Positions 15,188-48,280 of a stretch of 64,000 nucleotides of DNA are shown piece by piece. The notes below the pieces were generated by a model, which searched no databases, was not told where the DNA came from, and saw nothing but the letters and a program-made list of their open reading frames with translations. Positions within the stretch are counted from its first letter, which is position 1, and the number at the start of each line of letters is the position of its first letter. The stretch is from Gloeobacter morelensis MG652769 (GTDB taxonomy: Bacteria; Cyanobacteriota; Cyanobacteriia; Gloeobacterales; Gloeobacteraceae): contig NZ_CP063845.1 in the NCBI RefSeq assembly GCF_021018745.1, positions 3,658,001-3,722,000 of the forward strand, in the 5' to 3' direction. A program made the position numbers and the translations under genes.

Positions 15188-16459
15188 TCACGCTTCGTCT
15201 CGTTTATTCTGAAGTAATTTTAACAATCGGCGATTCAGTTCGAAGAAAGGGTTGTCTTGGTCTGGCGCACCGACAAGGAGAGCCATTGTCCGCATTGTTT
15301 CTAAAAGCTCTTGGCTATCCTCGATTTGAGAGACGCCTGTGTAGCCATGGGCAACGATCGAACTGTTTCGTGAATCCACATGATTGTTAACGACTTTATT
15401 GTTTTTTAACAGGTCTTGGTCACTGTTACAATATTCGAGAATTTTCGCAAGAGCGTAGCGGTTTGGGCTTCCCCCAGATCTGAACTGATCTCCAAGATGC
15501 TTCTTCAGTTGTCCTTGATCTCGTAATCTGACTTCCTGCCAAAAACATTTATCCTCAACTTCTTGATCTAAATTTAAGCGCTCCTTCGTCCGATGTTTGA
15601 GCACAGCTTCTTGAAAACGAAAGACTCGACCAAGAAAATCTGCAAACTGCCCAGTAAGCAATTTGATTTCGGCGTTAAAGTAAAGTTCGAGAAGTAATCT
15701 TTGCCAAACTTGCTCATGCAGGTCCTTCATCTGACTGTCGAAAGGCGAACGATCATCTATCGACAAGGCTTCTATTGCTTTCTGGGCATTATCAAAGTCA
15801 AATGACAGACGGAAGTGGCCATAGCGCAAAAGGGGAATCAACTGACCAACTTGTTTGAGCTTGGATTTTTCAACGACCACCTGTGCCCCTACGTAGTCAA
15901 AGTTTTGGAGTTGCTGTTCCAGTATTTTGCTATCGATTTCAGTGCGCAAAAAGCTGGTATCGCTTTGAAACACCCGATACTGATCAGGTCGCGACTCCTT
16001 AGGGTTGCGAATCTGCCACACCCGGCTATCAGGTGAAAATCCGACTGTATGCAAAATGCTCCAAGCCATTTTCATCGCTGGAGTTCCAGAGGAAGCGTTC
16101 AACTCCAAAATATCGCCCTGTTGCCGGTACTGATTTGCCAGTTCAATACCTCGCCTTGCTTCATTGATTGCCAGTTTGGAATCAATAGGATCTTCAGAAA
16201 GTTCCGCGCTAACTTCTACTGCTTCTACACAGTCGATTGGTAGTTTCAGCTCATGGCTCAACCAATCGCAACAGGCGTTTTTGCGAAGCGCATTGTCCGC
16301 TGTATACAGTAGAATGACTCGACGAATCGATTGCCCAAACTCGTGGGTCAAATGGCGAGTGAGGGTGACGAGAGAGCCTTCTCGATCTGTATCACGGATG
16401 TGATTTTTATCGGAGAATGGGTCCTGATTGCCAATGAAAGATACAAGAATGCTCGACAT
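15188..16459 (-). CDS. CARF-HEPN ribonuclease, Csm6/Csx1-like (TIGR02710-type)
   Basis: The 423-residue protein begins with a Rossmann-like CARF domain: ILVSFIGNQDPF, a strand-helix VILLYTADN, and the nucleotide-binding NASSGTPAMKMAWSI near residue 120, which is the S-G-T-P signature of the TIGR02710/Csm6 group. The C-terminal half is helical and contains DSRNSSIVAHGY (about residues 362-373). Its R-x6-H spacing fits the catalytic R-x4-6-H of HEPN RNases. In the known pathway, cyclic oligoadenylate made by Cas10 binds CARF and switches on HEPN RNA cleavage. The gene is the last of the cmr operon, 36 bases after cmr6. Its GC content is clearly lower than that of the cmr genes, so it may have been added later. 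Confidence 0.8.
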   Translation of the reverse strand: MSSILVSFIGNQDPFSDKNHIRDTDREGSLVTLTRHLTHEFGQSIRRVILLYTADNALRKNACCDWLSHELKLPIDCVEAVEVSAELSEDPIDSKLAINEARRGIELANQYRQQGDILELNASSGTPAMKMAWSILHTVGFSPDSRVWQIRNPKESRPDQYRVFQSDTSFLRTEIDSKILEQQLQNFDYVGAQVVVEKSKLKQVGQLIPLLRYGHFRLSFDFDNAQKAIEALSIDDRSPFDSQMKDLHEQVWQRLLLELYFNAEIKLLTGQFADFLGRVFRFQEAVLKHRTKERLNLDQEVEDKCFWQEVRLRDQGQLKKHLGDQFRSGGSPNRYALAKILEYCNSDQDLLKNNKVVNNHVDSRNSSIVAHGYTGVSQIEDSQELLETMRTMALLVGAPDQDNPFFELNRRLLKLLQNKRDEA

Positions 16460-16495
16460 AATTATGGCCTGACAAGAAAAGTGTTGCAGCGAACT

Positions 16496-18160
16496 TTAAC
16501 TAAGTGGCCAGACTTTTTTAAAGTCCGATCCGGGGGTACTCAAAAATTCAAGAAATTGATTTGATACTTCAGACCCATCTGGAAAAATCGTCAGGATCTC
16601 AACGAATCCCTTGGTGAGTTCCGGTTCCCGCTGCTTTTGCTGGTTTTCTTGGGAAGTATAGCGGGGATACATCCGGTGCCAGATGCGGCCAATCTGGTTG
16701 ATCTTTCCGGTTAGGATACTGCCTTTGATAGTGGCTTCTCCGCTGTAGGGACCGTGAAACCACTGCACCGCCCGGCTGTCCTGTTGATTATCGGCAATTC
16801 GTGCCCAGACTTGTACTTTTTGCGAATGCCAGGCTTCTCGCCATTGGGGGGGGTTCTGGATTTCTTCTTTAATTTTCAGCCAGTTCCTGAAGGCATCGCG
16901 GACATAATCGATCGCACTGCCGATACTGTGCAGGTTTTTTGGGCCATTGATCGGCACCAGCAGTTTGTTTGCGGGCGGTTCTGCAAATTGCCAGTGGCAG
17001 CCGATCATCGGTTTATTTTGCAGATATTGCTGATAAAATAAACGGTGATCGACCCGCCTCCAGGACTTGCCGAAGCCTCCGAGCAACATTGTAAAAATCA
17101 ACAGCGACTGGCATAGTTTCTTCAATTGTTGGCGTTGGTCGTCCTTGAGATTGCGCACGGCGGTTAGTCGTAGTTCCCCCTCGACTTCGTAGACCGGCAA
17201 CTCGAACTTACCCTTGCCGAAGGAATCCACTTCGCACACCTCCGCCAGGAAGGTCGAGCCGAGCAGGCCGACGATCGGTCCATTCCGGCCGCTTCCAAGC
17301 CCACCCCAAAGCTCTTCGACCCGTTTTTTCGCTTCAGCTTCGCCGAGGAGTCCCCCTAACAGGCGCAGTGTGTTTCCGCGCAAGGCAGCCTTGAACAGGT
17401 TGTCCCGAAATTCGGCTGTTCCATCGAGCAATTTTGAAGCAACACCCTGGCCCCTCAGGCTAACTTTGTATAGTGTGTCGGTCGAAGACTGTGCAGTCTC
17501 AATCTGGCCATAACCGGCGCTCACACGCGAACCCAATCCATTGGCGAGCGCTTTTTCCCAGATTTCCCAGACAATCTTCCACTCTTCCTCAGTCAGAGGC
17601 TCACTGCTGGAGATGCCAAAACTCAGTTCAGGTCTGTAAAGGGAAATGCCGGCGAAGGCGCTGTGATCACTTTGGGATTCGACTTGCCAGGCTTGTTGAG
17701 GGTGAATGACGTCCACCAGGTTGTTCAGCCAGTGCGCGTCGGTGGGATAGCCGCCGTGGAAGCGCAAAAGCCCAGGTGAGAGTTCCTTTTGACCAGCCGG
17801 GCTGCCGCAGTAGTGTACAGCCTGCTCCGGGGTGCAGGCGTTGCGAAAGGCTCCTTTCATGCTGGAGCCGGGGTAATAAGGCCAGCCGCGCGCACCCAGA
17901 ACCGGACGGATGATGCCCTCGTCTTGACCGCCGTTGGTCACAAAGCGCCAGGCAATCTGGTAACTCCGGGTTTGGATGCCTTCGCCAAAACCCGAATAGT
18001 GCCGCTCCGCCTGGGCCGTCCACTCGTAGAGCCATTGCCGTATATCCGATTCGGCATAACCCTGGCCGACATATTGCAACTGGCAACGGCCGCGCACCTG
18101 CGCTCTGTACATCATCGGCACCTGGTTTGCGGAGTTTGCGGGGGGTAGATTGCTAGCCAT
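16496..18160 (-). CDS. cmr6: Cmr6-like RAMP protein, unusually long, possibly with a second RAMP-like half
   Basis: The ATG at 18160 overlaps cmr5 by 8 bases. The N-terminal half has the Cmr6 features: GWPYYPGSSMKGAFRNAC (the PGSS-x-KG-x-x-R motif that closes the backbone repeat) and a glycine-rich GLGSRVSAGYGQI loop. At 554 residues it is about twice the usual Cmr6. The C-terminal half holds LLIFTMLLGGFGKSWRRVDHRLFY, a helix followed by a glycine-rich basic loop reminiscent of a second RAMP fold such as Cmr1, which is otherwise missing from this operon. A Cmr6-Cmr1-like fusion is my inference. Alternatively the extension is a lineage-specific domain of III-B variants. Confidence 0.8.
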   Translation of the reverse strand: MASNLPPANSANQVPMMYRAQVRGRCQLQYVGQGYAESDIRQWLYEWTAQAERHYSGFGEGIQTRSYQIAWRFVTNGGQDEGIIRPVLGARGWPYYPGSSMKGAFRNACTPEQAVHYCGSPAGQKELSPGLLRFHGGYPTDAHWLNNLVDVIHPQQAWQVESQSDHSAFAGISLYRPELSFGISSSEPLTEEEWKIVWEIWEKALANGLGSRVSAGYGQIETAQSSTDTLYKVSLRGQGVASKLLDGTAEFRDNLFKAALRGNTLRLLGGLLGEAEAKKRVEELWGGLGSGRNGPIVGLLGSTFLAEVCEVDSFGKGKFELPVYEVEGELRLTAVRNLKDDQRQQLKKLCQSLLIFTMLLGGFGKSWRRVDHRLFYQQYLQNKPMIGCHWQFAEPPANKLLVPINGPKNLHSIGSAIDYVRDAFRNWLKIKEEIQNPPQWREAWHSQKVQVWARIADNQQDSRAVQWFHGPYSGEATIKGSILTGKINQIGRIWHRMYPRYTSQENQQKQREPELTKGFVEILTIFPDGSEVSNQFLEFLSTPGSDFKKVWPLS

Positions 18161-18575
18161 CGCTTGACTTTTCCTTGATCTTGTAGCGCTGGGTCCACCA
18201 TACCAGGCTGTCGCACAGTTGGGTCAGTACAGCCAGGGCGATGCGCTGCTCCTCCAGTTTGAGGTTCCAGAGCCTGGCGGACATTTTCTCAATGGCCGGT
18301 GTGTTGTCTTTGTTGTCGGGAATGGGCTCGTTGGGGATCACCACTTGCGCTTTTTTCATGATTTGCTCAAAGGCATCCCAGGTCTCTTTCCAGTACTGGG
18401 CTTTGGCGGTGTCTTTTTCTCTGCGCAAGCGCAAATGCTCTCCCCAGAAGCGCTCCAGGCCGTAGGCAACGGTTGTGCGCATTTTGTAGGACTGGCCCAG
18501 GACATCCTTTTTGTCGCGGTACTTGAGCACCAGTTTTTGGGCTTCTTGATCGAGCAGGTAGGGTGTCCAACTCAC
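18153..18575 (-). CDS. cmr5: Cmr5, small subunit of the III-B effector
   Basis: The 140-residue helical protein (LLDQEAQKLVLKYRDKKD, then MRTTVAYGLERFW and IALAVLTQLCDSLVWWTQRYK) fits the small all-alpha Cmr5 subunit that lines the central filament of the Cmr complex. It begins with a GTG at 18575 that overlaps the stop of cmr4 (GTGA). Sequence conservation in Cmr5 is low, so position in the operon and size carry much of the weight. Confidence 0.85.
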   Translation of the reverse strand: MSWTPYLLDQEAQKLVLKYRDKKDVLGQSYKMRTTVAYGLERFWGEHLRLRREKDTAKAQYWKETWDAFEQIMKKAQVVIPNEPIPDNKDNTPAIEKMSARLWNLKLEEQRIALAVLTQLCDSLVWWTQRYKIKEKSSDG

Positions 18576-19402
18576 AGGTTCGCTCCTTGGTCGGGGTTCT
18601 GCAGTTTGATGTCGATGCGGCAGTGGCCAAAACCGACCGATTCGAGGCCCCCCAGGTAAATTTCGCCCTGAGTTTTTCCTTCAAAGGGTTGCCAGTCCTG
18701 GGCGTCGGAAACTGGCTTCAAGGCCACCGGAAAAATGAGAATCGTTCCTTCCGGAAGGGCTTCGACGTTGAAAAAGGCGCCACCTTTTACTTTCTTTTCG
18801 TCTTCGTCGAGGGCCACCCGGCTTTGGCGGTAAAGCGCCATGTCGTGAATCATGGCCATGTCGTTGTCGGCAACCACCGCCGCCGGTTTTTCGACGGCAT
18901 TTGGAAACCAGGCACCCAGAGGTGCAGTATGTTCTACCGTCAGAAAACCGAGGTTGAAGAACAAGGTTCGCTGTGTGCCGCTTCCCTGGCGCGCCTGCAG
19001 GTTGCTCGACCCGGTGTAGGGTTCGGGGATCTGTTCGGTGATGCCCACGATCCGCCGGTAGCGCTCCAGAAGCCGGGGGCAGCTGACCCAGACCACCGGC
19101 TGGCCGGGGCAAAATACCGGCAGCCAGACAATCGAGGCGTACTCGAATTTGACGATCGATTCGCTGGTGCTGTCGGTTTCGCCGGTTCTGGCCGCCCGAC
19201 CGTACCAGTGCTCTTCGTCCGCTTCACCGCTACGGCGCATGTCGGCGCGCAACCGGCCGCGAATCGAGCTTCCGGGGATAATGCCCGTCTGCAAAAACTG
19301 GTCGCGGAAGATCAAGTTGAGATTGCCGGATTCTTCGCCGGCGGTCGCCCCAACGTGCACTGGGGCGAGCGTTTCGATGATGCCGTAGGCTTTGCGGTAC
19401 AT
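18572..19402 (-). CDS. cmr4: Cmr4, backbone RAMP of the III-B effector
   Basis: The ATG at 19402 overlaps the cmr3 stop (TGATG); a TTG at 19405 is in frame. The 276-residue protein opens as MYRKAYGIIETLAPVHVGATAGEESGNLNLI, then has IIPGSSIRGRLRADMR, the G-S-S-I-R/K-G-x-x-R motif of Cmr4. Cmr4 multimerises along the crRNA and its conserved Asp cleaves target RNA every six nucleotides. The likely catalytic Asp is in the first glycine/acidic loop, but I cannot place it safely. GC content matches cmr2 and cmr3. Confidence 0.9.
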   Translation of the reverse strand: MYRKAYGIIETLAPVHVGATAGEESGNLNLIFRDQFLQTGIIPGSSIRGRLRADMRRSGEADEEHWYGRAARTGETDSTSESIVKFEYASIVWLPVFCPGQPVVWVSCPRLLERYRRIVGITEQIPEPYTGSSNLQARQGSGTQRTLFFNLGFLTVEHTAPLGAWFPNAVEKPAAVVADNDMAMIHDMALYRQSRVALDEDEKKVKGGAFFNVEALPEGTILIFPVALKPVSDAQDWQPFEGKTQGEIYLGGLESVGFGHCRIDIKLQNPDQGANL

Positions 19403-20388
19403 CAAGCAGCTCCTCTTTCAGTTTCCAATCCGTCGATGTCGATAGGTAGCGCCAAGCCGCAGCCCCAGCGCTTGAGGCTGTAGCCCTCTTTAGGAAACCA
19501 CTCCTCGGGCCATTCGCTCCAGGTGAGCCCCAACGCCCTGGGCAGCACGTAGACGCTGCCTGCCGGTACGGCGTAACGACCGCGGCTGAGTTTTTCGCCC
19601 AATCGGTAGCGGTAGGGCACAGGTTTGTCGGTCAGCAGGTGGGTTGGTTCCGGGAAATCTGCGTGCCTGGGATAGCGGTAGGAAAGGCGGTTCGAGCCCC
19701 AGACGCCCGGCGTGAGCAGGGCAAAGGCCCGGCCAATCTTGCGCTGCAGCAGCTCGGCCAGGCGTCCGCTCACCGGCCTGCAATCGACTTCCACCAGATG
19801 GCTTTCGCCCCCAAAGCGATACCAGCCGGGTTTCAGGGCGTGGCTGGCCAGATACACCAGGGCCGTACCTTCCTGCATCTGGACCGCTTGCTCCAGAAAC
19901 AGGCCGTCCTCGGCAAGCACATGCCGCTCGTCGTCTTTAAGATGCGGGTGCAACACCGGCACAAACTTCCACGGATTGCCGGCTGCCCGCTCCCGGATCA
20001 CTGCGAGTTTGCTCTGCCAGTGCGCCAGCCGCTGCCAGCGGTAGTCGGGCTGCAACGCCGGATTGTCCCGGCTCCAGCGCATTTGGCGAAGCGACCATTG
20101 ATCGGTCGCTTCTTTGCCCAGGACGCGATTGCGCGGAATCGGCACGTAGAAGTTGTCGGGTTCTTCGACTTCTGCCCAGAAGGGGCCGGCCAATTGCAGG
20201 TGATTTTTCAGTTCTTGATAGAAATCGGGCTGCCTGCGGGCCTGGTTGAAATAGATGCCCGAGAGGGTGGCGGCCTCCGGCGGGAATTTTGCACCCGAGC
20301 GACCCACCAGGTTCTCAGGCGACAGGAAAGCCCCGGCGCTGCCGTACAGTAGCCCCAAAGGGCGCAGGGTCACGGTGTATCCGAACAT
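19402..20388 (-). CDS. cmr3: Cmr3, Cas5-like subunit of the III-B effector
   Basis: The 328-residue product starts MFGYTVTLRPLGLLYG and ends with the glycine-rich region typical of Cmr3. It carries LLTPGVWGSNRLSYR, KLSRGRYAVPAGSVYVL and a final WGCGLALPIDI. In the Cmr complex this subunit holds the 5' handle of the crRNA and contacts Cas10. The gene overlaps the 3' end of cmr2 by 19 bases and the 5' end of cmr4 by 3 bases. Confidence 0.88.
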   Translation of the reverse strand: MFGYTVTLRPLGLLYGSAGAFLSPENLVGRSGAKFPPEAATLSGIYFNQARRQPDFYQELKNHLQLAGPFWAEVEEPDNFYVPIPRNRVLGKEATDQWSLRQMRWSRDNPALQPDYRWQRLAHWQSKLAVIRERAAGNPWKFVPVLHPHLKDDERHVLAEDGLFLEQAVQMQEGTALVYLASHALKPGWYRFGGESHLVEVDCRPVSGRLAELLQRKIGRAFALLTPGVWGSNRLSYRYPRHADFPEPTHLLTDKPVPYRYRLGEKLSRGRYAVPAGSVYVLPRALGLTWSEWPEEWFPKEGYSLKRWGCGLALPIDIDGLETERGAA

Positions 20389-21911
20389 AACTGCCAGCCT
20401 ACTCGAATGAGATCGCGAATCCAGCCGATCAGGGCACGGGGGGTGGTCTCGCCGACGAGGTGCTTGAGGTTGTTCAGCAAATGCTGATCTTGACCAGGAA
20501 AGTAAATATTAAAAAGTGCCAGAGCAACGCTGTAATCCGGTTCTTCGTCGGCAGACACCGGTGGTTCAAAAGCCCTACGGACTTCCAGTTGAGCCAGATC
20601 CGTATAAATATGCGCCCAGTTGTTGCGGCCGTCGCGGTCGCGGTATTTGTCCAGCAAGTTTAGATCCGACCAGGGGCAGGTCCACTGGACGAACTGGCCG
20701 CTGCCAAAGACCACCCGCAAGGTCACCCGGTTGCGGCCTTGTCTTTTGGCCGTTTGCTCCGCCTCGCGGCAGTGCTGGAGCACGTCGCGCTGGGGAACGC
20801 TGGGGGCGGCCCAGACAAATCCGGCGCTGACGGTAATATCCTGGCTATGCTCGCGCCACCGCTTAGGAAAGCCGTGCAGCCATTGCAGCGCCTCACTTGC
20901 AGCCAGCCGTTCCGCCTGCTCGGGACGGTAGAGAACCCCCAGAAAGTCGTCGCCTCCGGCATAGATAACCCGGCCCAGTTTGGGCGGGAACTGTTCGGCG
21001 AACTGCCGACCCCACTGGCGCATGGCCGTGCTGAAATCGCCGATCGCCTCGTGGGATTGTTCTGCCAGTTGCTTGAGGTGATCCCCGACTTTATCGCCGT
21101 CGCCCATAAACCAGCCGGTCCAGCGGCCTTGCTGTGTCTTGGAGCCGTCGCGCGGCAGGCGGTAGATGTCGGTGAAGCTCTCTTCCAGTGGCTCAATGCC
21201 CAGGCTCCTGGCCACATCCTCCCGTGTCACCAGGCGCTTGACCAGTTCGGGAATGCTCAAGCGCTCCTTATCGGACAAAAACTTGCCCTGGACCTCGCCT
21301 CCCGGTTGCACGCCCTCCAGCACCCTGGCCAGTTCCTGATAGAACGCCTGCATTTGGGCTTTTTCAGCGGACAGACGTCGCTCGCGCACATCGGCAATCT
21401 GACCCAGTTCCGGCCAGGCAGCGGCGTCCGTACCCGACAGGCTCGAACTTTCGCCCGTCCAGTTGACGGCGGTCCAGGCGCGCTGCAGTTTGCGCTCTTC
21501 GAGATCTTCCATGGCGGAGCGGATCGAATCGCCTGTCCCCCAGAAGACTTCCCAGGTGTAATTGGCCCACAGCTTCCACTCCTCTGCCCAGGCGTATCGG
21601 TACTGGCGGAGAGCATTCTCGATCCACTCGCGGCAATGGCGCAGAATGTTTGCCCAACTGGCAAGCAGTGCCTCACGCGCCGTTGCTTCGGGAAAACTGC
21701 CGTGCACCAGGATGCGGTTGGGCATTCCTTTTTGCAGGTTGACCTCGCCCGGCGAAACAATCTCGGTGCCCGGATGCTCCAAAATGGCTGTGATCAGCCT
21801 GGAGCTGAGGTAGGAGAGGATAATCGACGACCCGTACAGATCTCTGAGTTTGCGGGACTTCTCGATAAAACTCTGGACCGGGGCAAAGGTGACGGCAGTG
21901 TACGTAGTCAT
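20370..21911 (-). CDS. cmr2: Cas10/Cmr2, HD-less, with an intact GGDD palm
   Basis: I use the ATG at 21911 (MTTYTAVTFAPVQSF); a TTG at 21917 is in frame. The protein has about 513 residues, against 700-1000 for most Cmr2 proteins. It starts directly with the first palm domain (FAPVQSFIEKSRKLRDLYG) and GRWTGWFMGDGDKVGDHL, and no N-terminal HD nuclease domain is present. The second palm carries VIYAGGDDFLGVL around residue 318, the catalytic GGDD of cyclic oligoadenylate synthesis. The expected output is therefore cOA signalling to the CARF-HEPN protein at the operon end, without single-stranded DNA cleavage. It is the first gene of the operon, and 200 bases separate it from the divergent ParD gene. 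Confidence 0.9.
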   Translation of the reverse strand: MTTYTAVTFAPVQSFIEKSRKLRDLYGSSIILSYLSSRLITAILEHPGTEIVSPGEVNLQKGMPNRILVHGSFPEATAREALLASWANILRHCREWIENALRQYRYAWAEEWKLWANYTWEVFWGTGDSIRSAMEDLEERKLQRAWTAVNWTGESSSLSGTDAAAWPELGQIADVRERRLSAEKAQMQAFYQELARVLEGVQPGGEVQGKFLSDKERLSIPELVKRLVTREDVARSLGIEPLEESFTDIYRLPRDGSKTQQGRWTGWFMGDGDKVGDHLKQLAEQSHEAIGDFSTAMRQWGRQFAEQFPPKLGRVIYAGGDDFLGVLYRPEQAERLAASEALQWLHGFPKRWREHSQDITVSAGFVWAAPSVPQRDVLQHCREAEQTAKRQGRNRVTLRVVFGSGQFVQWTCPWSDLNLLDKYRDRDGRNNWAHIYTDLAQLEVRRAFEPPVSADEEPDYSVALALFNIYFPGQDQHLLNNLKHLVGETTPRALIGWIRDLIRVGWQLCSDTP

Positions 21912-22074
21912 CGGCAAGCAGGTGGATGGAAGGCACCAGACCGCTGTCCGACCAACTTCGTCGGTTGCCTGGCAATGGAAGATAGACTATTCCACCTTGT
22001 GGTCTATCACGGCAACCGCAATAGAACTTTACGCGAACGATACGAAGCCTCCCTGGGTGGAGCGCCTCGACCAC

Positions 22075-23184: not shown

Positions 23185-24336
23185 CTACGTGACGCTCAGC
23201 ATCAACCTTGCAGCCCGCAACCCGCGTCGACAGTCCCGGGCTTTGTTCCTACAGGTGTCTATCAAATTGTCGAGCCAGTCACCCAAACCCAGCACCGCCT
23301 GTGCCCAGTGCCAAGCGTACTGGCCAACCCGAAAAGGGCTGTGACGCCGCAAGCGTCGCTGCTTTTCTTGAACCCTGCCGGTGTACTTGTCCACCCCTAT
23401 TCGCTCCAGTTGCAGACCGTTGAGCATCGCTGCACTCCAGGCAATCGATGCTAACAACAGTACCCGCATCATCCGTTCCTGACTGACGCGTACTTCTTCA
23501 AGATGGTAGCCACAGGATTTGACGTCTTTGTGCCAAACTTCGATTCCCCAACGGTCAGCATACAGCTCAAGTGCTTCGTGTAACTTTGGCCGGTCTGTCA
23601 AAATATACCAGCCTTCACCCGGTTGCATATTCCGGATTTTTCGTTTCCAGATACAAGCAATATTGAACGGCTCGAATCCCTTGTTTTTACGATTTTTGGT
23701 GACGCGCACTCCGCCAAGAAACATCGACATTCCAGGTTGTAGTTCCAAAGACTTTAGCGAGCGAAAGTCTGCACCTTGTTGTCGAATATATTCACTGATT
23801 TTTAATCTCAAGCAAAAGCCGGCCTTTCGACTGCGCAACCAATTGGCCAGCTTGACACTGCAAAACTCTCTGTCCCCCAACACCACGACGCGATAGGCAG
23901 AAAGTAGAGACAGAACCGGTGAGAGTAACAGTTGTTGGTCTTCGAGGTTACTGTTGCCAGGATGGTCGAGCAAGGTCCAATTGAGTGGCAAGGCATGTCT
24001 ATGCCACACCAGGGCCACTGTCAGCACGTTGTAGTGCCACCAGTCGGTGCGGTCGATCGCCAGTTTGAGTGTGGTTGTCTTGGAAAAGTGGGTCAGTACC
24101 AGGTACAAAACCAATGGGAACCAAGCCTCGAAAATATTGAGTTTGTCGAGGGTGAGAAAGCGTTGGAGAGCGCGCTTGCGACTGTCGGCAGTGATCGGCA
24201 GCGGCAGTGCCTGGGAGAGTTTGCCCAAGGCGAGCTGTTTGTGGGTTTGCAAAGTGGCGACAAGCAAATGCAAAAACAGAGACTGTCGCGCAGTGAGCAG
24301 GTGTGCGAAGAAGGTCTGGTAGAATGCAGGCATCAT
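23185..24336 (-). CDS. IS4-family DDE transposase
   Basis: The protein from the ATG at 24336 has 383 residues (an ATG at 24375 lies inside a hairpin, see 24348-24375). It shows the IS4 layout: LKLAIDRTDWWHYNVLTVALVW with the first catalytic Asp, VVLGDREFCSVKLANWL with the second, and the Y-(2)-R-(3)-E-(6)-K signature as YADRWGIEVWHKDVKS. The catalytic set appears complete, so the element may still move. It ends 6 bases inside the left inverted repeat region. Confidence 0.9.
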   Translation of the reverse strand: MMPAFYQTFFAHLLTARQSLFLHLLVATLQTHKQLALGKLSQALPLPITADSRKRALQRFLTLDKLNIFEAWFPLVLYLVLTHFSKTTTLKLAIDRTDWWHYNVLTVALVWHRHALPLNWTLLDHPGNSNLEDQQLLLSPVLSLLSAYRVVVLGDREFCSVKLANWLRSRKAGFCLRLKISEYIRQQGADFRSLKSLELQPGMSMFLGGVRVTKNRKNKGFEPFNIACIWKRKIRNMQPGEGWYILTDRPKLHEALELYADRWGIEVWHKDVKSCGYHLEEVRVSQERMMRVLLLASIAWSAAMLNGLQLERIGVDKYTGRVQEKQRRLRRHSPFRVGQYAWHWAQAVLGLGDWLDNLIDTCRNKARDCRRGLRAARLMLSVT

Positions 24337-24347
24337 TGTTTTTTTGG

Positions 24348-24375
24348 ATGGACTTGGGCGACATCCCAAGTCCAT
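24348..24375 (-). other. Hairpin over the upstream start of the IS4 transposase
   Basis: ATGGACTTGGG-CGACAT-CCCAAGTCCAT is an 11-bp perfect inverted repeat. It covers the upstream ATG and lies just before the better start at 24336. Hairpins at this place in insertion sequences are known to limit translation from transcripts that read in from outside. Confidence 0.5.
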
Positions 24376-24440: not shown

Positions 24441-25106
24441 GAAGTTCCAACCATTAACCCCAACATTGATATTGAGAAGTCTGTAGGGATTGACCTCGGC
24501 TTAAAAGATTTTCTCGTGACTGGCGATGGTCTATATGTTCCCATCCCCCAATACTATCGTAAAGCCCAAAAGCGATTGACAAAAGAACAGCGCAAGCTCG
24601 CGCATAAAAAGAACAAAGCCAGTAAACGTAGAGCTAAACAGGTTCGCAAAGTTGCCAAGCTTCACGCCAAGATAGCAAGGCAAAGGAAAGAGTTTCATCA
24701 CAAGACAGCAGTTTTACTGTTGCGAAAATACGAGGTTATTGCTCATGAGAACTTAAACATTAAAGGTTTGGCGAGAACTCGTCTTGCCAAATCTGTGCAT
24801 GATGCTGGATGGGGAACATTCATCACAATCTTGGCAAACAAAGCTGAAAAAGCTGGGTGCTTAACGATTGGTGTGAATCCATCTGGTACGACGCAAATGT
24901 GTTCCGATTGCGATGCTCATGTTCCCAAAACTCTAAGCGACAGATGGCATGCTTGCCCCGATTGCAGCTTGGAATTGCATAGGGATGAGAATTCAGGTCG
25001 GAACATGTTGAAAAAGGCGGAGGGTCATCCCGTCTTTAAAGCTCGTGGAGTCCGAAGCACTAGCTGGACTATGAAGCGAGAAGCCCGCCCTCTATCCGCG
25101 GGATGA
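24441..25106 (+). pseudogene. tnpB: TnpB (IS605) remnant lacking its N-terminal half
   Basis: The frame is open from the IS4 end (EVPTINPNIDIEKSVGIDLGLKDF) to the stop at 25106. The RuvC residues are visible: Asp in GIDLGLKDF, Glu in YEVIAHENLNI and Asp in ELHRDENSGRN. The zinc ribbon is CSDC...CPDC. The N-terminal about 180-200 residues (REC/WED part of TnpB) are absent, so RNA-guided nuclease activity is not expected. A shorter internal ATG start at 24516 would lose the first RuvC Asp. The 3' end and the right end are preserved, which is where TnpB guide RNA is normally encoded. Confidence 0.85.
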
Positions 25107-25816: not shown

Positions 25817-28800
25817 GGTTCCTCAGAATCGCTTCTGCACTGAAGAGCACACATGAGGGACATCAGTTTGCAAGAACTGGTGTCATTCAGAGGGTTTCCA
25901 ACAAATCGCTCCTGCACTGAAGAGCACACTTGGTGGATTCTTTCGTCGATGAGCAGCTTGCTGCAGAAGTTTCCAACTAATCGCTCCCGCACTGAAGAGC
26001 GCACCGGAGCTTCTGGGGAGGTTGGAGAATTCTCAAACTGTACAGACGGTTTCCAGCTAATCGCTCCCGCACTGAAGAGCGCACAGTACTCGACTTCTGG
26101 GGGGCATTCTTTGGTCATGGCGAGTTTCCAACTAATCGCTCCCGCACTGAAGAGCGCACAAAGCCAAACGAACTCACCCCGGCGCGGCGCGGCAACTCGC
26201 CGCCCGGCTGCACCCAGGGTTTCCAACTAATCGCTCCCGCACTGAAGAGCGCACCCGACGAGCAGCGTGTGATCGATGCTGTCGGTCTTGAATTTGCCGT
26301 TTCCAACTAATCGCTCCCGCACTGAAGAGCGCACTCTATCAGAGGTTGGTGACGCAGTTACCGGTTTCCAGGGATGTTTCCAACTAATCGCTCCCGCACT
26401 GAAGAGCGCACGCGCCGATTTAGCCCGCGCGAACCTGACCGGTGCCGATCTGTTTCCAACTAATCGCTCCCGCACTGAAGAGCGCACCTGAATTTATCTG
26501 GCCACCCAAACAAAGGCCTAGAAGAACTGGTTTCCAACTAATCGCTCCCGCACTGAAGAGCGCACAAATCGGCGCCGACCAGTTTCGCCCCGACCAGTTT
26601 CGCGTGTTTCCAACTAATCGCTCCCGCACTGAAGAGCGCACTAGCCAAGCGGATTGCTTGACATCAAGAGAAGCCCCCGAAACGGTTTCCAACTAATCGC
26701 TCCCGCACTGAAGAGCGCACCTGGCTGACGGAAAACTGGCCGGGGCGAACCTGTGGGGTTTCCAACTAATCGCTCCCGCACTGAAGAGCGCACCCGATCT
26801 GGCCGGGGCGAACCGGGAATAGAATCTGTCGCACCCTTGCAAGTTTCCAACTAATCGCTCCCGCACTGAAGAGCGCACTTCCAGATCATGGGAGATAACT
26901 TCAAGATCTGCGGGTGGTTTCCAACTAATCGCTCCCGCACTGAAGAGCGCACTGGACTCCGTCAGAATGGATGAGCTACTTGAAGCCATCGCGTACGTTT
27001 CCAACTAATCGCTCCCGCACTGAAGAGCGCACCGTGAAAGCTGCGCTTTGGCCGCTCAAGCCTCCCAGGCAGGGAGGTTTCCAACTAATCGCTCCCGCAC
27101 TGAAGAGCGCACTCGCCCTAACCTGATCGCGTTTTGCGAGTTTATCAAGCGTTTCCAACTAATCGCTCCCGCACTGAAGAGCGCACAGGTCGACGTGCAG
27201 CGCGCCGGGGAACACGAAGCCCAGCTCGTTTCCAACTAATCGCTCCCGCACTGAAGAGCGCACATATTTCACAATCCATACTATTCTCAATATCACTCTC
27301 TTCTTGTTTCCAACTAATCGCTCCCGCACTGAAGAGCGCACGCGCCGATTTAGCCCGCGCGAACCTGACCGGTGCCGATCTGTTTCCAACTAATCGCTCC
27401 CGCACTGAAGAGCGCACCTGACCCGCGCGAAGCTGGCAGGCGCGAACCTCACGGTCGGTTTCCAACTAATCGCTCCCGCACTGAAGAGCGCACCCAACCT
27501 CACCGGCGCAAAGCTGGCAGGCGCCAACCTCACGGTCGCCAACCTGTTTCCAACTAATCGCTCCCGCACTGAAGAGCGCACCCGGGCGGTGTTCGCCCCA
27601 GAGGATCTCGTCGTGGTTGTTTCCAACTAATCGCTCCCGCACTGAAGAGCGCACTGCTCGAAGTGCGGTCAAGACGCTGCTACAATCAGGCATGTTTCCA
27701 ACTAATCGCTCCCGCACTGAAGAGCGCACCTTAATGCCTATGGCTCGATTTACAACAGACCCTCTGCCGTTTCCAACTAATCGCTCCCGCACTGAAGAGC
27801 GCACAGCTGAGTTGTGGGAGTTGTTCTTCCACTGGGCATCAGGCAAGTTTCCAACTAATCGCTCCCGCACTGAAGAGCGCACACCCACGGCGAAGCAGGC
27901 CGCCCGGCCAACCTGGCGGAGGCGTTTCCAACTAATCGCTCCCGCACTGAAGAGCGCACCTGCCTTGAACACTTTTTGGGCTGCTCTTATAAGGCCAGAG
28001 GATGTTTCCAACTAATCGCTCCCGCACTGAAGAGCGCACGTAATGAGCCGCCCGCGCTACCCGAGCGACGACAAACAGCGCGAGTACCGCGCCGCCCACG
28101 AACTGCGGGTTTCCAACTAATCGCTCCCGCACTGAAGAGCGCACTCAGAAGCGTCGTCGCCATCGCCGTCCATGCGCCAGAGCTGGGTTTCCAACTAATC
28201 GCTCCCGCACTGAAGAGCGCACCGAGGGCCTGAGCTAGTACCCGTGAGGATCTCTCAAGTCTTTGCTCGAAGGTTTCCAACTAATCGCTCCCGCACTGAA
28301 GAGCGCACCCTCGACATTGAGGAGTTGATCGATCCCGATCCCATCGGGTTTCCAACTAATCGCTCCCGCACTGAAGAGCGCACGCGCCGAGTACGCCCAA
28401 TCGGAGGTGCAGGCCATCCTCGATGAACTGGAGGTTTCCAACTAATCGCTCCCGCACTGAAGAGCGCACTCCGACGATGGGCTGGGGGCTGATGATCTCT
28501 ACCAGGGTTTTCAACTAATCGCTCCCGCACTGAAGAGCGCACAGCCAAGGTCAAGGCCGATACGGAGCTCCAAAAGCGCATTCAGGTTTCCAACTAATCG
28601 CTCCCGCACTGAAGAGCGCACTTGATGCCAACGTCAGCGCGGGAGTATTCCGATGACCTATTCGGTTTCCAACTAATCGCTCCCGCACTGAAGAGCGCAC
28701 ACTTTCATGCCGTAGACAATGCCCAAGTCAAAGGAGGTTTCCAACTAATCGCTCCCGCACTGAAGAGCGCACCTCCCTGCTGAACAATCGAGGCAGATAA

Positions 28801-29376
28801 AAGGTTTTAGGTTTCCAACTAATCGCTCCCGCACTGAAGAGCGCACTGGTAGCTAAGGCTTACCGTGAGGGCTTCAATGCCCGCATTGTTTCCAACTAAT
28901 CGCTCCCGCACTGAAGAGCGCACCGGAGGGGGGAAGACCGGCGCGCGCCGAGAATAAAAGTTTCCAACTAATCGCTCCCGCACTGAAGAGCGCACGCAAA
29001 AGGAACTTGAGAACTTGCAGAAGCGGCTGCTCAGTTTCCAACTAATCGCTCCCGCACTGAAGAGCGCACCCCACTGACCGATCTTGACAACAAGTTGGCG
29101 GAGTCGTGTTTCCAACTAATCGCTCCCGCACTGAAGAGCGCACACTGATGGGCTCTACTAAGGCGTTTGAATTCAGCCAATCTAAGTTTCCAACTAATCG
29201 CTCCCGCACTGAAGAGCGCACGGCGAACCTGGCCGGGGCTGACCTGACCGGGGCTGATTTGACGTTTCCAACTAATCGCTCCCGCACTGAAGAGCGCACG
29301 CCGTAATCCATGGCCTGACCGGCCAGTTCCCACTGGTCATGTTTCCAACTAATCGCTCCCGCACTGAAGAGCGCAC
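25817..29376 (-). CRISPR. CRISPR array, 46 repeats of 36 bp and 45 spacers
   Basis: On the plus strand the repeat starts GTTTCCAACTAATCGC and ends GAAGAGCGCAC, 36 bases. I count 46 copies. The first two (25817-25852, 25894-25929) are degenerate and a third (26049) and one at 28507 have single changes, so the left end is the old trailer end and the leader is on the right, next to cas2. Transcription is therefore predicted from the minus strand, where the repeat ends TTGGAAAC and can form a CGCTC/GAGCG stem. Most spacers are 36-44 nt. Outliers are 59 nt (26160-26218), 52 nt (27494-27545) and 69 nt (28040-28108). One 40-nt spacer occurs twice (26412-26451 and 27342-27381). Confidence 0.97.
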
Positions 29377-29572
29377 AGCGACCAGTGTAGTCCAATCCCA
29401 GAGCAGTTTCCAGGAGAAGGATGCGACGATCTCTTTGCATCGGGCAGAGTCCTGAGAAGCATTTGTATGTTTGGAAAGGCTCAAAGCCTTGTGCTGCAAT
29501 GGATCGACGACCTCTACGAGAAACCGGCACTGCAGAGGGTGGGCGGAGATCGTCGAGGGCGGAAAGTTAGTG
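29377..29572 (-). promoter_or_regulatory. Probable CRISPR leader
   Basis: These 196 bases lie between the last perfect repeat and the cas2 stop, at the side where repeats are not degenerate. They hold no convincing gene. A 7-base match to the repeat start (GTTTCCA) occurs at 29406-29412. I see no strong -10/-35 pair, so the array may be co-transcribed with cas1-cas2 or use a weak promoter here. Confidence 0.6.
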
Positions 29573-29848
29573 TCAAACAACGATGTAGTCCGGCGCTTTG
29601 TAAGGTTCATCGCCACCGTAGACGACGATTTTGGGACGGGAATTTTCGATGAGCGGATAGCACCTCAGCGAGTCTTCGGGGAGTTGCAAGAGCTTGACCA
29701 GTCTGGATTTGAGCTGTTGAAACTTCTCGTCGTCCAGATCGCACTCAAATACGCTGTACTGGACTCTTTTGCCGTAGCCGAGCAGCAACTTCGCGATTTT
29801 ATTGCGCCGTTTGGTGACAGGAATGTCGTACGCGACGAGCCAGAGCAT
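29573..29848 (-). CDS. cas2: Cas2, spacer-integration partner of Cas1
   Basis: The ATG at 29848 lies 2 bases after the cas1 stop and gives 91 residues, a normal Cas2 length. The protein starts MLWLVAYDIPVTKRRNKIAKLL, with the conserved Asp in AYDI at the end of strand one, followed by YGKRVQYSVFECDL. Cas2 dimers bridge two Cas1 dimers during spacer acquisition. The upstream in-frame extension to 29935 overlaps cas1 and is not needed. Confidence 0.95.
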   Translation of the reverse strand: MLWLVAYDIPVTKRRNKIAKLLLGYGKRVQYSVFECDLDDEKFQQLKSRLVKLLQLPEDSLRCYPLIENSRPKIVVYGGDEPYKAPDYIVV

Positions 29849-29850
29849 GG

Positions 29851-30843
29851 TCAGCGGATGCGGTAGGCAACCAGTTCTTGATTGCGGTAAAGACTGTCGC
29901 GGTAGGTGCGCACGGCCCAGTCCAACAGTTCCCAACGATACCCCTCGCGCTCATTGGGCAATTGAATGGTTTGTGCCATGTACTGCTCGAATTGGGCAAT
30001 CACCAAACGGCGACCGACGTCTCCCAGGTAGCAGCTTCCCTGAACATAGTCGAAGTGCGATTCGTCCAGCATGCGGCGGTTGATCAGCGTGATCACCAGC
30101 GAATCGACAATCGGAGCGCGAAAGGGCTCGATTAAATCGGAAATCAAAGCCAGATGGCCGTCGTCCAGGGCGTGCAGATGAGCCGGATACGGATCGAGGC
30201 CGTAAACTTCCACGACTGCCCGCAGATGGTTCCAAAGCAGACTGTAGCCAAAACTCAGCAGCGCGTTGACTGGGTTGGTGGGCGGGCGGCGGACGCGCTC
30301 GACCAGGCGAAAGCGCCCATCTTGCAACTGCCGCCCAAAAGCCGGAAAGTATTGGGCCGCCGCCGCACCCTCCAGACCGAACAGTTGCTGTACCGAGTTC
30401 GCCCGCACGACGCGCTCCTCCAGATAGGCCAGGATCTGTACAGCAAGCTCGTTTTCACTCACCGCCCGCCGCCGCTGCTGACGCATCAAGAGCACCCGCT
30501 GGTTGTGGATTTTGGCAGCCACCAGCGTGCGGGCGATGGCGAGCGAACAGCCTGGATCGCTGTTGGCCTGCCATTGCAAAAACCGCTGGCGGCTGCGGCC
30601 CGCAAAAGGTGCGCTCACGGTGCCGTAGAGCCAACCCTGCCGCGACAGATAGGCGGCAGGGATGCGGCGCACCAGACAGGTGCGCACGACGTCAGCTGTC
30701 AGGTGAATGCGGCCAAAAAGAAACAGCCGCTCGATTTGTGCAAGGGGAACCTGCCGCAACAGCCTTTGCTGCTGGGTAATCACCAGCTGTTCGGCCTGCT
30801 TGCCGACCTGGCTGCCCTGCTCCAACAGGTACAGGCTAGCCAC
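29851..30843 (-). CDS. cas1: Cas1 integrase
   Basis: I place the start at the GTG at 30843 because GGAGGGG stands directly in front of it; the protein then begins VASLYLLEQGSQVGKQAEQLVI (330 residues). The upstream open frame to 30966 has no Cas1-like sequence. Active-site candidates are the Glu in LFGLEGAAAAQYF, the His in DPYPAHLHALDDGHLAL and the Glu in DLIEPFRAP. The GTG overlaps by 8 bases the stop of the small membrane protein upstream, so translation is probably coupled. No fused reverse transcriptase or Cas4/Cas6 domain is present. Confidence 0.95.
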   Translation of the reverse strand: MASLYLLEQGSQVGKQAEQLVITQQQRLLRQVPLAQIERLFLFGRIHLTADVVRTCLVRRIPAAYLSRQGWLYGTVSAPFAGRSRQRFLQWQANSDPGCSLAIARTLVAAKIHNQRVLLMRQQRRRAVSENELAVQILAYLEERVVRANSVQQLFGLEGAAAAQYFPAFGRQLQDGRFRLVERVRRPPTNPVNALLSFGYSLLWNHLRAVVEVYGLDPYPAHLHALDDGHLALISDLIEPFRAPIVDSLVITLINRRMLDESHFDYVQGSCYLGDVGRRLVIAQFEQYMAQTIQLPNEREGYRWELLDWAVRTYRDSLYRNQELVAYRIR

Positions 30844-31063
30844 GACCCCTCCGAACGGGCAAAGGACCTCCACCCGCCAACAGCCAGCCCGCGATGCTGT
30901 CACCCACCAGGGCGACCCCGAGGCTGGAAAGGGCCACAAGCGCGGTGCAGGTGAGCACCGCCGCAAGACCCAAAGGGGCGATGAGCAAGATGACCAGCGT
31001 CACCAGCCCGTTGACGGCGGCGACGGCGAGACAGCGAAAAAAGACGAGGCGCTGGGGTTGCAT
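30836..31063 (-). CDS. Small two-TM membrane protein overlapping cas1
   Basis: The 75-residue product begins at the ATG at 31063, preceded by AGGAG at good spacing. Nearly all of it is hydrophobic: one segment at about residues 8-31 (LAVAAVNGLVTLVILLIAPLG) and a second at about 33-64, followed by a short Gly/Arg tail PVRRGRG. I recognise no family. Its stop (TAG at 30836) lies inside the first codons of cas1, and it is 68 bases downstream of the coiled-coil membrane protein gene, so it belongs to the same operon. A holin-like or membrane-anchoring role is speculation. Confidence 0.7.
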   Translation of the reverse strand: MQPQRLVFFRCLAVAAVNGLVTLVILLIAPLGLAAVLTCTALVALSSLGVALVGDSIAGWLLAGGGPLPVRRGRG

Positions 31064-45588: not shown

Positions 45589-45616
45589 AATAGCAATTCA
45601 TGAGATGTGGCTATTT
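45588..45616. terminator. Small shared hairpin between the exporter and pglZ
   Basis: AAATAGC and GCTATTT form a 7-bp stem overlapping both stop codon regions, in AT-rich sequence, consistent with a bidirectional terminator for the convergent genes. Confidence 0.5.
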
Positions 45617-48280
45617 ACCGTTACTCAGATCGAAATGGCGACACAGTAAGTCTCGATTGAGCTTGACAGTTTCAGTCGCATTGTCGCGAGTTAGGACGGC
45701 GTAGCCATCAATATTCAGCAGTCGTTGCATCACCGCCAAGAAGCTGCGGGCGCGCACAGGCGCACAGTTGATCGCTCGCGCCAGTACCGATAGAGGCAAC
45801 GTACCGCCACTGCGATCTAATGTGGTCAGCAAATCGGCAATTCGTGCATCTGGATACACAGTTTGATTCATCAGCTTTTTTTGTTCCTGGAAAATGGGTG
45901 AAGCTAGCAAAGCTGCTACCCAGTCGGTTGTCTGTGCTTCAGAGCGTATTTCTTCCAACTCAAATTGAGTATTGCGTGGGCGCTGTTTGCGCTTTTTCGG
46001 CTTTGATGAAGGCTGCAGCACCTGCGTCAGGCGAGTAGATGGCTCGTCCCACCAGATTGGGGTGTCCCCGAGAGCGGCATGCCAGCCACTCGGAAATGCC
46101 TCAGAAGCGGTGAGTACGGCAATCGGCACGACCATCTCTTGGGGATTCACGCCACCGTGATAACCGTTCTTTTTGGCACTGTAACGCAGTTTTTCTGTCC
46201 AAGGTGCGATCAACGATCGAGATTGAGGTAACACGACTCGCTGACCGGTGACCCGCAACTCATTGGCATCGGGTTTTCCATCATCAAGCCGCCAGCGCTC
46301 TCCACCGTTTCCAGATTTAGTCTGTGTTCCACAATCTAAAACATGACCGTGGTCACTGAGTAAAATCACGGTGCGATTGGCCTCTTTCGCTTCATGCAAT
46401 AGAGCAGGCAAAATTTTGATACTGTCGTGCGACCAGCGCAGGTCAAGTTGCTCACCTCTCGGCAAATGATCATCGATTGCATTGACAACCACACCAACGA
46501 TGCGCTGCTGAGCTGAAGCGATCGCTTTGCGCACTTCGGCGGCAAGTAGGCCGTCTGCCTCCGACTGCAAGGCGGCTTTGTGAAAAAGTACAGGCGGTTG
46601 ATTGGGCCGACACTGGGTACGGAGCGCTGCGTGGGCGGCAAAACCGGTCTTCTCTTCTCTAGCAGTGCCCGGGCGCAGTTGACCACACAGCAAGCTCGTC
46701 CGCGAAGCTTCCGTGGTCGATGGTAGGGCTGCCAGGCCGGCCATCACCGCCAATGCTTCCCTCTCCGGACACAAAGGGATCCAACCCTGCTCCACAAGAT
46801 CCGCTAAAAGTTCGCGGCAGACGGCCATGGTCATGCCGTCCATAACCACCACAAGCACAGGGGCACTGTTTGCCAGGGGAGCAACGACGGTCGATAGGAT
46901 CGTCTCGACCGGTGCTACACCTGCTCCTGAGTTGCCAAGTGCTGTCCAATCGCGCAGAAGCTCCGCGAACCGGTGGGCTTGCTGCTCTCGGATCGCGGTG
47001 ACCCTTTCAAACAACTGTCCGTAGGCTCTCGCAAGTTCCCGCAGCGGATCGCCCGCCCGGAGTGCCCAACGCGCCCAATCGACAAAACAGCCTTCGGTGC
47101 GGTGATAGGCGATGGCCTCGGCCAGCGAGGCCGGTTGGGCAGTCTCCCCTTGCAACCGCCACTTTGCCAGGCGCATCGACATATCGAGGCGTTCCAGCCG
47201 GCGAGCATCGGTTACGGCTTTGTCGTGGGCCAAAATCGCCTGGTGAGAGGCGACGAGCTGCTCAAACGAGGGAGAATCCCGGTGTGTCAGGGTGTTTTCG
47301 AGCTGCTGGGCAAACCGACTCAGGCGTTGGTCGAACCCGAGTGGCGAAGTGTCGCTCAGGTACGCAAACGCCTCTGCCCCGATCTCACTGAGAATCTCGT
47401 CGGTGCGCTGCAACTGCCGCTGCTTCTGCATCGGATCGGCAAGCTGACGAACGGCCTCGATGGCCCCCGTCCTCCATTTGTGAACGACCCTCTCATCCAG
47501 GGAGTTGCCTCCTAGGTAACGCTCCTCTGCTTTGCCAATCGCCCTGTCAAGCTGTCCTCTTGCCTCGGAGTGATAGAGCACACCGACAGCCAGGCCAATG
47601 GGTACGGCGTCCGGGCGTTCGTTGCGCAGGACACAGGCCAGTACCGATTTCGTCGGTTCTCCGGCCAGGGTGGCAAGCCACTCTATCGACGCTTCGCGCA
47701 GATTTTCCGGGGTCGTTCGAAATCGTTCGACGTTGTGTGCTTCGACTGACCACTGCAAGATAGAAATCAGATCGGGTCGCTCGGTGGTCAGGTTGAGGCC
47801 ATGGGTGAGCAGAATTGGCCAGACGGTTTCTGCATCCAGGAAACCGCCGCTCACAGGAGCATAGCCCCCAATTGGGATCCACTCCATAAGCAGCTCTGCA
47901 ATCCAGCGCTGCCGACTCAGTCGGGGATCCACGGCATGGGCCTGAAACAAAGATTTAACAATCTGCCAACTGTCCAAAGGCACCAGTTGCCGTCTTGCGA
48001 GACGCAGCAGAATATCATCATCGAGGTTGGCTTCTTCGAGGTCTGTAACCAGCACTTTGGTTGTTTGAGGGGCAAGCGGTTCACGCAGAGCGATGCGCAT
48101 TGCCAGGGGTGAGTCGCACTGCTCGATGAGGTAAATTTCATCTCCGTCGCGGATCTGCCGCTCGCCCGACCAACGCCCCGTCACCCGCAGGCCCACCACC
48201 CGCGGCGCCTTGGGGTCTCGTTTGCGGATGGCGGCCACTTGGGCTTTGATCTGGCTGAAAGTCGGAACCGATATGCTCAC
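45611..48280 (-). CDS. pglZ: PglZ, BREX type 2 phosphatase-like protein
   Basis: The GTG at 48280 overlaps the pglY stop (GTGA). The 889-residue protein carries the alkaline-phosphatase-like PglZ core in its second half. Metal-binding Asp lies in APVLVVVMDGMTMAVCRELL (about residue 480), ALPSTTEASRTSLLCGQLRPG holds the nucleophile region, and TVILLSDHGHVLDCG holds the D-H-G metal site. NGYHGGVNPQEMVVPIAVL is the conserved C-terminal block. The N-terminal half is a helical region specific to BREX PglZ. PglZ is essential for BREX phage resistance and in Streptomyces counteracts PglX toxicity. It is the last gene of this locus in the window; brxD and brxHI do not follow. Confidence 0.9.
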   Translation of the reverse strand: MSISVPTFSQIKAQVAAIRKRDPKAPRVVGLRVTGRWSGERQIRDGDEIYLIEQCDSPLAMRIALREPLAPQTTKVLVTDLEEANLDDDILLRLARRQLVPLDSWQIVKSLFQAHAVDPRLSRQRWIAELLMEWIPIGGYAPVSGGFLDAETVWPILLTHGLNLTTERPDLISILQWSVEAHNVERFRTTPENLREASIEWLATLAGEPTKSVLACVLRNERPDAVPIGLAVGVLYHSEARGQLDRAIGKAEERYLGGNSLDERVVHKWRTGAIEAVRQLADPMQKQRQLQRTDEILSEIGAEAFAYLSDTSPLGFDQRLSRFAQQLENTLTHRDSPSFEQLVASHQAILAHDKAVTDARRLERLDMSMRLAKWRLQGETAQPASLAEAIAYHRTEGCFVDWARWALRAGDPLRELARAYGQLFERVTAIREQQAHRFAELLRDWTALGNSGAGVAPVETILSTVVAPLANSAPVLVVVMDGMTMAVCRELLADLVEQGWIPLCPEREALAVMAGLAALPSTTEASRTSLLCGQLRPGTAREEKTGFAAHAALRTQCRPNQPPVLFHKAALQSEADGLLAAEVRKAIASAQQRIVGVVVNAIDDHLPRGEQLDLRWSHDSIKILPALLHEAKEANRTVILLSDHGHVLDCGTQTKSGNGGERWRLDDGKPDANELRVTGQRVVLPQSRSLIAPWTEKLRYSAKKNGYHGGVNPQEMVVPIAVLTASEAFPSGWHAALGDTPIWWDEPSTRLTQVLQPSSKPKKRKQRPRNTQFELEEIRSEAQTTDWVAALLASPIFQEQKKLMNQTVYPDARIADLLTTLDRSGGTLPLSVLARAINCAPVRARSFLAVMQRLLNIDGYAVLTRDNATETVKLNRDLLCRHFDLSNGK

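Follow-up and report, generated by a model that had tools for sequence, protein, structure and literature searches.

Pentapeptide-repeat spacers in a type III-B CRISPR array of Gloeobacter morelensis and their probable origin from phages

The Array and Its Effector Genes

The 64-kb stretch of the Gloeobacter morelensis MG652769 genome analysed here (C1:3658001-3722000, hereafter the window; the genome comprises 5.10 Mb in three contigs) contains an array of clustered regularly interspaced short palindromic repeats (CRISPR) at 25817-29376, named array 1, several spacers of which encode fragments of pentapeptide-repeat proteins. The array consists of 46 repeats of 36 nt, 42 of which are perfect, and 45 spacers of 36 to 69 nt. 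Its left end carries degenerate repeats, with eight mismatches at 25817 and three at 25894, the cas2–cas1 pair adjoins its right end, and the minus-strand repeat ends in GGAAAC, which we take to be the source of the CRISPR RNA (crRNA) handle. For these three reasons the leader is placed on the right, as the first-pass annotation of this DNA had it, and transcription would run from the right along the minus strand; the gap between array and cas2 (29377-29572, minus strand) is the probable leader, judging by position alone. We classify array 1 as type III-B (Cmr), with the leader on its right.

The adaptation genes, both on the minus strand, are cas2 (29573-29935; PF09827, E 1.3e-23) and cas1 (29851-30966; PF01867, E 9.7e-83), and the domain searches of the window proteins reported no reverse-transcriptase domain on the latter. 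The effector genes form a minus-strand operon (15188-21917) in the order Cas10–Cmr3–Cmr4–Cmr5–Cmr6–CARF/HEPN, comprising cas10 (Cmr2; 20370-21917; PADLOC Cas10b, E 1.8e-216), cmr3 (19402-20388; PADLOC, E 1.6e-16), cmr4 (Cas7; 18572-19405; TIGR02580 above the cut-off), cmr5 (18153-18575; PADLOC, E 3e-62), a cmr6-like gene coding for 554 residues (16496-18160; PADLOC, E 3.8e-210) and the gene of a CARF-HEPN effector of the Csx1/Csm6 type with an RNSSIVAH (Rx6H) motif (15188-16459; PADLOC, E 2.4e-124). The type III-B core set is present, namely Cmr2/Cas10 with a palm GGDD motif (residue 321 of 515) together with Cmr3, Cmr4, Cmr5 and Cmr6. Many type III-B Cas10 proteins, though not all, have an HD nuclease, which is not required; here, the HD dipeptide is absent from the whole 515-residue frame. 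The system thus shares with type III-B systems carrying a CARF-HEPN protein the Cas10 GGDD, Cmr3 to Cmr6, the CARF-HEPN effector itself and a cas1–cas2 pair of its own, but differs from them by a short Cas10 without HD, by an unusually long Cmr6-like protein, by the lack of a separate Cmr1 model match in the window's Cmr operon (PADLOC), and by an array that concentrates its spacers on one gene class.

Pentapeptide Spacers in Three Arrays

The spacers were scored in six frames with a five-position pentad profile derived from 30 host stretches of the PF00805 family, and a score of at least 14 was required. Eight of the 45 spacers of array 1 (17.8%) reached it, compared with 29 out of 10,000 fragments taken from the rest of the window, 26 out of 10,000 fragments of plasmid C2 (about 0.3% in both cases) and 18 out of 9,000 shuffled spacers. 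These are the very eight, at the same coordinates, that the first-pass annotation had read as pentapeptide repeats. Its estimate that they make up nearly a fifth of the array agrees with this share, although the spacer at 26412 is identical to that at 27342, so that seven are distinct. Its statement that all eight are read on the plus strand, and hence would yield crRNAs antisense to the mRNA, applies to seven; the eighth, S10 at 26566, encodes pentapeptides on the minus strand only.

Among the plus-strand spacers, the highest scores are those of S22 (27494-27545; NLTGAKLAGANLTVAN, 34.8) and S44 (29222-29263; ANLAGADLTGADL, 34.6), the latter being identical over 28 of its 42 nt to the viral contigs L134/L135. 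They are followed by S8 (26412-26451; ADLARANLTGAD, 27.8), whose predicted crRNA is antisense, by its copy S20 (27342-27381), and by S21 (27418-27457; LTRAKLAGANLTV, 23.2), which agrees with S22 in 31 of 33 nt. The two lowest-scoring spacers, S12 (26721-26757; LADGKLAGANLW, 16.1) and S13 (26794-26842; 15.3), have 16 nt in common; S13, the weakest of the eight and a probable pentapeptide spacer, reads DLAGANRE and then a stop, and perhaps covers the end of a gene. S10 (26566-26605; AKLVGAKLVGAD) scores 24.1 on the minus strand and 10.0 on the plus strand, and its sense crRNA would not pair with the mRNA.

The host possesses two further arrays, and all three adjoin a cas1 gene of their own and hold pentapeptide spacers. 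Array 2 (C1:4905076-4906945, leader left), of type III-B and located beside its own Cmr operon, has six among 25 spacers, and array 3 (C1:1417003-1421647), of type I-B, has three among 64 spacers, 51 of them distinct. The control arrays of four other genomes (G002, G003, G007 and G046) contain a single one in 375 spacers (372 distinct); a region of 25-nt units (L097) and a tandem repeat (L184), judged not to be CRISPR, were excluded from these counts. With distinct spacers only, the host total of 16/120 exceeds the control value of 1/372 (Fisher's test, 9.5e-10), as does each array separately (7e-7, 2e-7 and 0.006 for arrays 1, 2 and 3), and the difference persists against the Gloeobacter control arrays alone (0/108, p 2e-5).

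If spacers were drawn in proportion to phage DNA, a share of 1.6% to 3.4% would be expected, on the basis of one 620-bp gene in 40 kb or two genes in a 17.5-kb contig. Both III-B arrays lie above it (p 7e-4 to 4e-7), and the I-B array hardly does (p 0.25 to 0.04). The direct comparison of the I-B array (3/51 distinct) with the two III-B arrays (13/69) gives p 0.056, or p 0.02 when T9 and T23, two spacers of array 2 described below, are counted.

In other respects, a run of 12 consecutive spacers occurs twice in array 3 with its order unchanged (U22-U33 = U35-U46; L177 2550-4316). Furthermore, one spacer in each host array encodes LNLSGH, namely S9 (26488-26529), T24 (L148:6802) and U7 (L177:1471). 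Two of the three continue as xNKG, which may indicate a second shared target gene; the phage, plasmid and viral collections yielded no source gene for LNLSGHxNKG.

A Phage Gene Family as the Probable Source

We consider it likely, with a probability of roughly 0.7, that the pentapeptide spacers are the immune memory of phages, or of close relatives of these, with small early genes of the phrog_7713 type. Proteins of this type have an N-terminal LxxILxxHxxWL...GxRADL block followed by A(D/N)LxG repeats. The proposal is based on the gene family, on the content of arrays 1, 2 and 3, and on a prophage in a sister Gloeobacter.

The pentapeptide spacers of array 1 carry A(D/N)LxG repeats as phrog_7713 does, and the joined peptide of S22 and S44 matches that family at 4.9e-8. 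The N-terminal block is represented in array 2, where T9 (L148 5695; LSEILKSHALW) and T23 (L148 6726; SHALWLDTRGGAG), both outside the repeat count, resemble it. Against a profile of the phage N-termini, T9 scores 27.7, the maxima being 19.0 among 10,000 random fragments and 16.2 among the 375 control spacers. T9 and T23 also carry a common inverted repeat, AGCCAC-N5-GTGGCT, so that their reading is partly strand-ambiguous. The likeness of the spacers to phrog_7713 proteins thus covers the N-terminal motif in T9 and T23 and the repeats in S22 and S44; the spacers show fragments only, and no exact gene was found.

Viral contig L135 carries terminase, portal-like and DNA polymerase genes, as well as two tandem small open reading frames (ORFs) that start with MTIT(I/V)QDLPAILAxHxKW and continue as pentapeptides. 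The first matches phrog_7713 (E 1.8e-19) and, as a whole protein, 210 out of 50,697 phage records, many of them perhaps via the repeats alone; the N-terminal 35 residues of the second match 12 phage records. In IMG/VR, at least 526 relatives were found among the 600 candidate stretches listed. The N-terminal pattern is present in 65 of 87 viral loci examined, and the N-terminus scores at least 25 in 68 of 80 viral loci, these having been chosen as relatives. A degenerate DNA pattern of T9 (EILxxHALWL back-translated) retrieved 15 stretches from the viral collection, seven of which do not run into pentapeptide repeats and eight of which do (L297, L299, L301, L302, L306, L307, L308 and L310). 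In L299, S44 finds three tandem sites at 31/33 nt. At an identity of 75% or more, a single spacer finds as many as 20 sites in one phage locus, as against a maximum of three in any of 30 host pentapeptide loci.

With regard to genomic location, alignment of the phrog_7713-type N-terminus gave no match in the host's own genome and, among 30 genomes, one match in G003 and one in G007. In the sister Gloeobacter G003, the pentapeptide ORF (about C1:907.73-908.35 kb) stands just after two repressor-like genes that lie on opposite strands. An integrase gene precedes them on the upstream side, and genes for portal, major head, tape-measure and tail proteins occur downstream; this region (C1, about 903-939 kb; L294/L295) is a prophage. 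In L299, the gene lies between genes for a recombination exonuclease and a single-stranded DNA-binding protein, on the strand opposite to the tail genes. In phage Salfasec13b, a pentapeptide gene and a gene with a restriction alleviation annotation overlap. The pentapeptide gene of Salmonella phage L, orf232, is called an 'early left operon gene' in the passage of PMC8022706 concerned with it, where one whole 15-bp repeat is reported lost between the sister phages L and ST64T, so the repeat tract is variable. That case shares with ours an early phage pentapeptide gene and differs from it in that the phage infects Salmonella and that the passage draws no link to CRISPR. An early position is thereby supported for the phrog_7713-type family, and the genes of Gloeobacter phages would be placed likewise.

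Strand Preference and Possible Advantage of Repeated Targets

Antisense orientation to the mRNA is seen in seven of the eight pentapeptide spacers of array 1 (six of the seven distinct ones), and in five of six in array 2, read leader-left, or six of eight with T9 and T23. When the two III-B arrays are pooled, the antisense share among the distinct family spacers is 12 of 15 (one-sided p 0.018, uncorrected, and similar spacers are perhaps not independent). Type III spacers target the coding strand in about 65% of cases on average, according to an excerpt of PMC8482600, and the family spacers here are in line with that bias; our proportion does not differ from this average (p 0.17). It probably represents the usual type III bias, and no special explanation is necessary.

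According to the gene content described above, the minus-strand crRNAs of array 1 would guide the Cmr complex to the mRNA. Cas10, with its GGDD motif and without the HD dipeptide, would then make cyclic oligoadenylate, and the CARF-HEPN protein, to judge from its motifs, would be switched on and cut RNA. We propose that early transcription would make a pentapeptide gene a good target, and that one crRNA would meet many near-matching sites per message since the gene is built of 15-nt repeats. We raise, as a speculation with the odds against it, that type III immunity gains from repeat-built targets: if one early phage transcript offers a crRNA many sites of near match, this might raise the signal and withstand the loss or shuffling of repeats, and such spacers might be retained beyond the share of the gene in the phage genome. 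That the host's I-B array has little pentapeptide excess fits this idea. In a staphylococcal type III-A system, spacers against early transcripts were the ones enriched and retained, as described in part of PMC11708336; both cases would have early-transcript spacers in common, whereas that study used an experimental library and the array here is a natural III-B one.

If the phage origin is correct, three CRISPR systems of one basal cyanobacterium have all been directed at a single class of early phage genes. This would point to unsequenced Gloeobacter phages, suggest that the phages depend on their pentapeptide protein to some extent at an early stage of infection, and provide a case in which to ask whether a transcript with several target sites is of benefit to type III immunity. 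In the literature searched, from which subscription journals are mostly missing, we found no report of CRISPR spacers concentrated on pentapeptide genes.

Counter-Evidence and Alternative Origins

Several observations weigh against the phage origin, the foremost being that searches of the phage, plasmid, viral and genome collections, and a shallow one of 388 cyanobacterial genomes, yielded no protospacer over the full length of a spacer (the search of relatives scored five candidates per genome and that of the class two, so that weak matches there may be missed). In 82 viral loci, the best identity over a spacer was 85%. Exact-pattern scans with S8, S12, S13 and S21/S22 in the viral collection, and with S8 and S21/S22 in the genome collection, were empty, and the scan with S44 ended at a stretch of identity covering 28 of its 42 nt. 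The first-pass annotation had named the lack of any protospacer in a pentapeptide gene as telling against its own proposal; taken strictly, this objection still stands, as the matches amount to at most 85% over a spacer and to this one exact stretch. Pentapeptide genes of cyanobacterial chromosomes and plasmids match the spacers about equally well. The N-terminal link to phrog_7713 comes from array 2, none of the eight spacers of array 1 covering that block, and the motif had been noticed prior to being tested; T23 is weak alone (17.6) and lies in the sense direction. Finally, the strand bias of array 1 by itself is not significant (six of seven distinct, one-sided p 0.06), and codon usage, applied as a strand test to the III-B spacers outside the family, gave 33 of 56 (p 0.11; held-out accuracy 72.5%, making orientation unreliable).

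The alternative that fares best, possible though clearly less probable, concerns acquisition: GC-rich repeat-coding DNA may be preferred by Cas1-Cas2 or broken more often, and a single gene would then yield many spacers, which is compatible with a phage source. The excess over a phage share of about 3.4% (p 1e-4 for array 1, 2e-4 for array 2) agrees with such a bias, and the similar pairs S21/S22, S12/S13 and T9/T23 suggest that several spacers came from one gene or related genes. However, the host's own 25 pentapeptide clusters have been left unsampled, the array of G002, with a repeat near-identical to that of array 2, has no pentapeptide spacer among 21 (p 0.02), and the seven self protospacers of array 1, inspected for a protospacer adjacent motif, an anti-tag or any common flanking motif, revealed none. 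As to the excess itself, selection for early multi-site targets and an acquisition hot spot are one reading each, and the data favour neither.

Somewhat less probable still is a source in a plasmid, an integrative element or another cyanobacterial chromosome rather than a phage. Array 1 does sample plasmids, five of its spacers being identical to C2, and pentapeptide genes of plasmids and cyanobacteria match at about 70% to 90% over part of the spacers. On the other hand, neither C2 nor C3 has a PF00805 match, and C2 was rejected as the source on this ground. Moreover, the T9-type N-terminus, common in viral contigs (68/80), is rare in cyanobacterial genomes (2/30, one of them in a prophage).

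An origin in the host's own pentapeptide genes, the spacers regulating or attacking paralogues, had been offered by the first-pass annotation alongside repeated encounters with mobile elements that carry such genes. In its favour, the chromosome holds all 90 PF00805 matches of the host in 25 clusters (0.16% of the genome), and seven other spacers of array 1 match host plasmid or chromosome at 100%. The same kind of search shows that self-derived spacers are recognisable when present, and yet the 18 family spacers of the three arrays reach at best a full-spacer identity of 0.57-0.79 in 30 host pentapeptide loci, and the whole-genome search gave the pentapeptide spacers 82% over 39 nt at best, the array itself aside. 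Since no host pentapeptide gene matches closely, and with the phage-type N-terminus absent from the genome, targeting of host paralogues is rejected as very improbable. The encounters with mobile elements are upheld by all three arrays and by the two array 2 spacers with a phage-type N-terminus. Chance or low-complexity resemblance, for which the many open frames of GC-rich spacers might be invoked, can practically be discounted, given the 8/45 in array 1 against 0.3% in host DNA and 18/9,000 in shuffled spacers, and the recurrence in arrays 2 and 3.

Self-Matching Spacers and Neighbouring Genes

The five spacers of array 1 at 26005-26048, 28040-28108, 28223-28272, 28309-28347 and 28384-28433 are 100% identical to the resident 172-kb plasmid C2, their protospacers lying in genes for a relaxase and a CbbX-like AAA protein, in a small ORF and in two ORFs that are uncharacterised. 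Pairing with the mRNA is expected for four of the spacers, and that at 28223 is sense to its likely ORF. Three spacers of array 3 (L177 4497, 4568 and 5578; 35 nt each) also match C2, over 35/35, 31/33 and 32/32 aligned nt, and seven of the eight C2 protospacers of arrays 1 and 3 fall within C2:147.6-168 kb. The spacers at 26160-26218 and 26255-26298 match the host chromosome at 100%, within the genes for a polyketide synthase and for a TonB-dependent receptor; both are oriented so as not to pair with the mRNA, as expected if self RNA targeting is avoided.

The window contains a further defence island with a PglZ gene like that of type 2 bacteriophage exclusion (BREX) systems (45611-48280; NF033446, E 5e-232). 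Given this neighbour, a role of the pentapeptide protein as a BREX blocker was considered and is not claimed; in the relevant portion of PMC7261183, two pentapeptide proteins were tested without effect on BREX. Between the Cmr operon and array 1 lie an IS4-family transposase gene (23185-24375) and a TnpB-like fragment (24516-25106).

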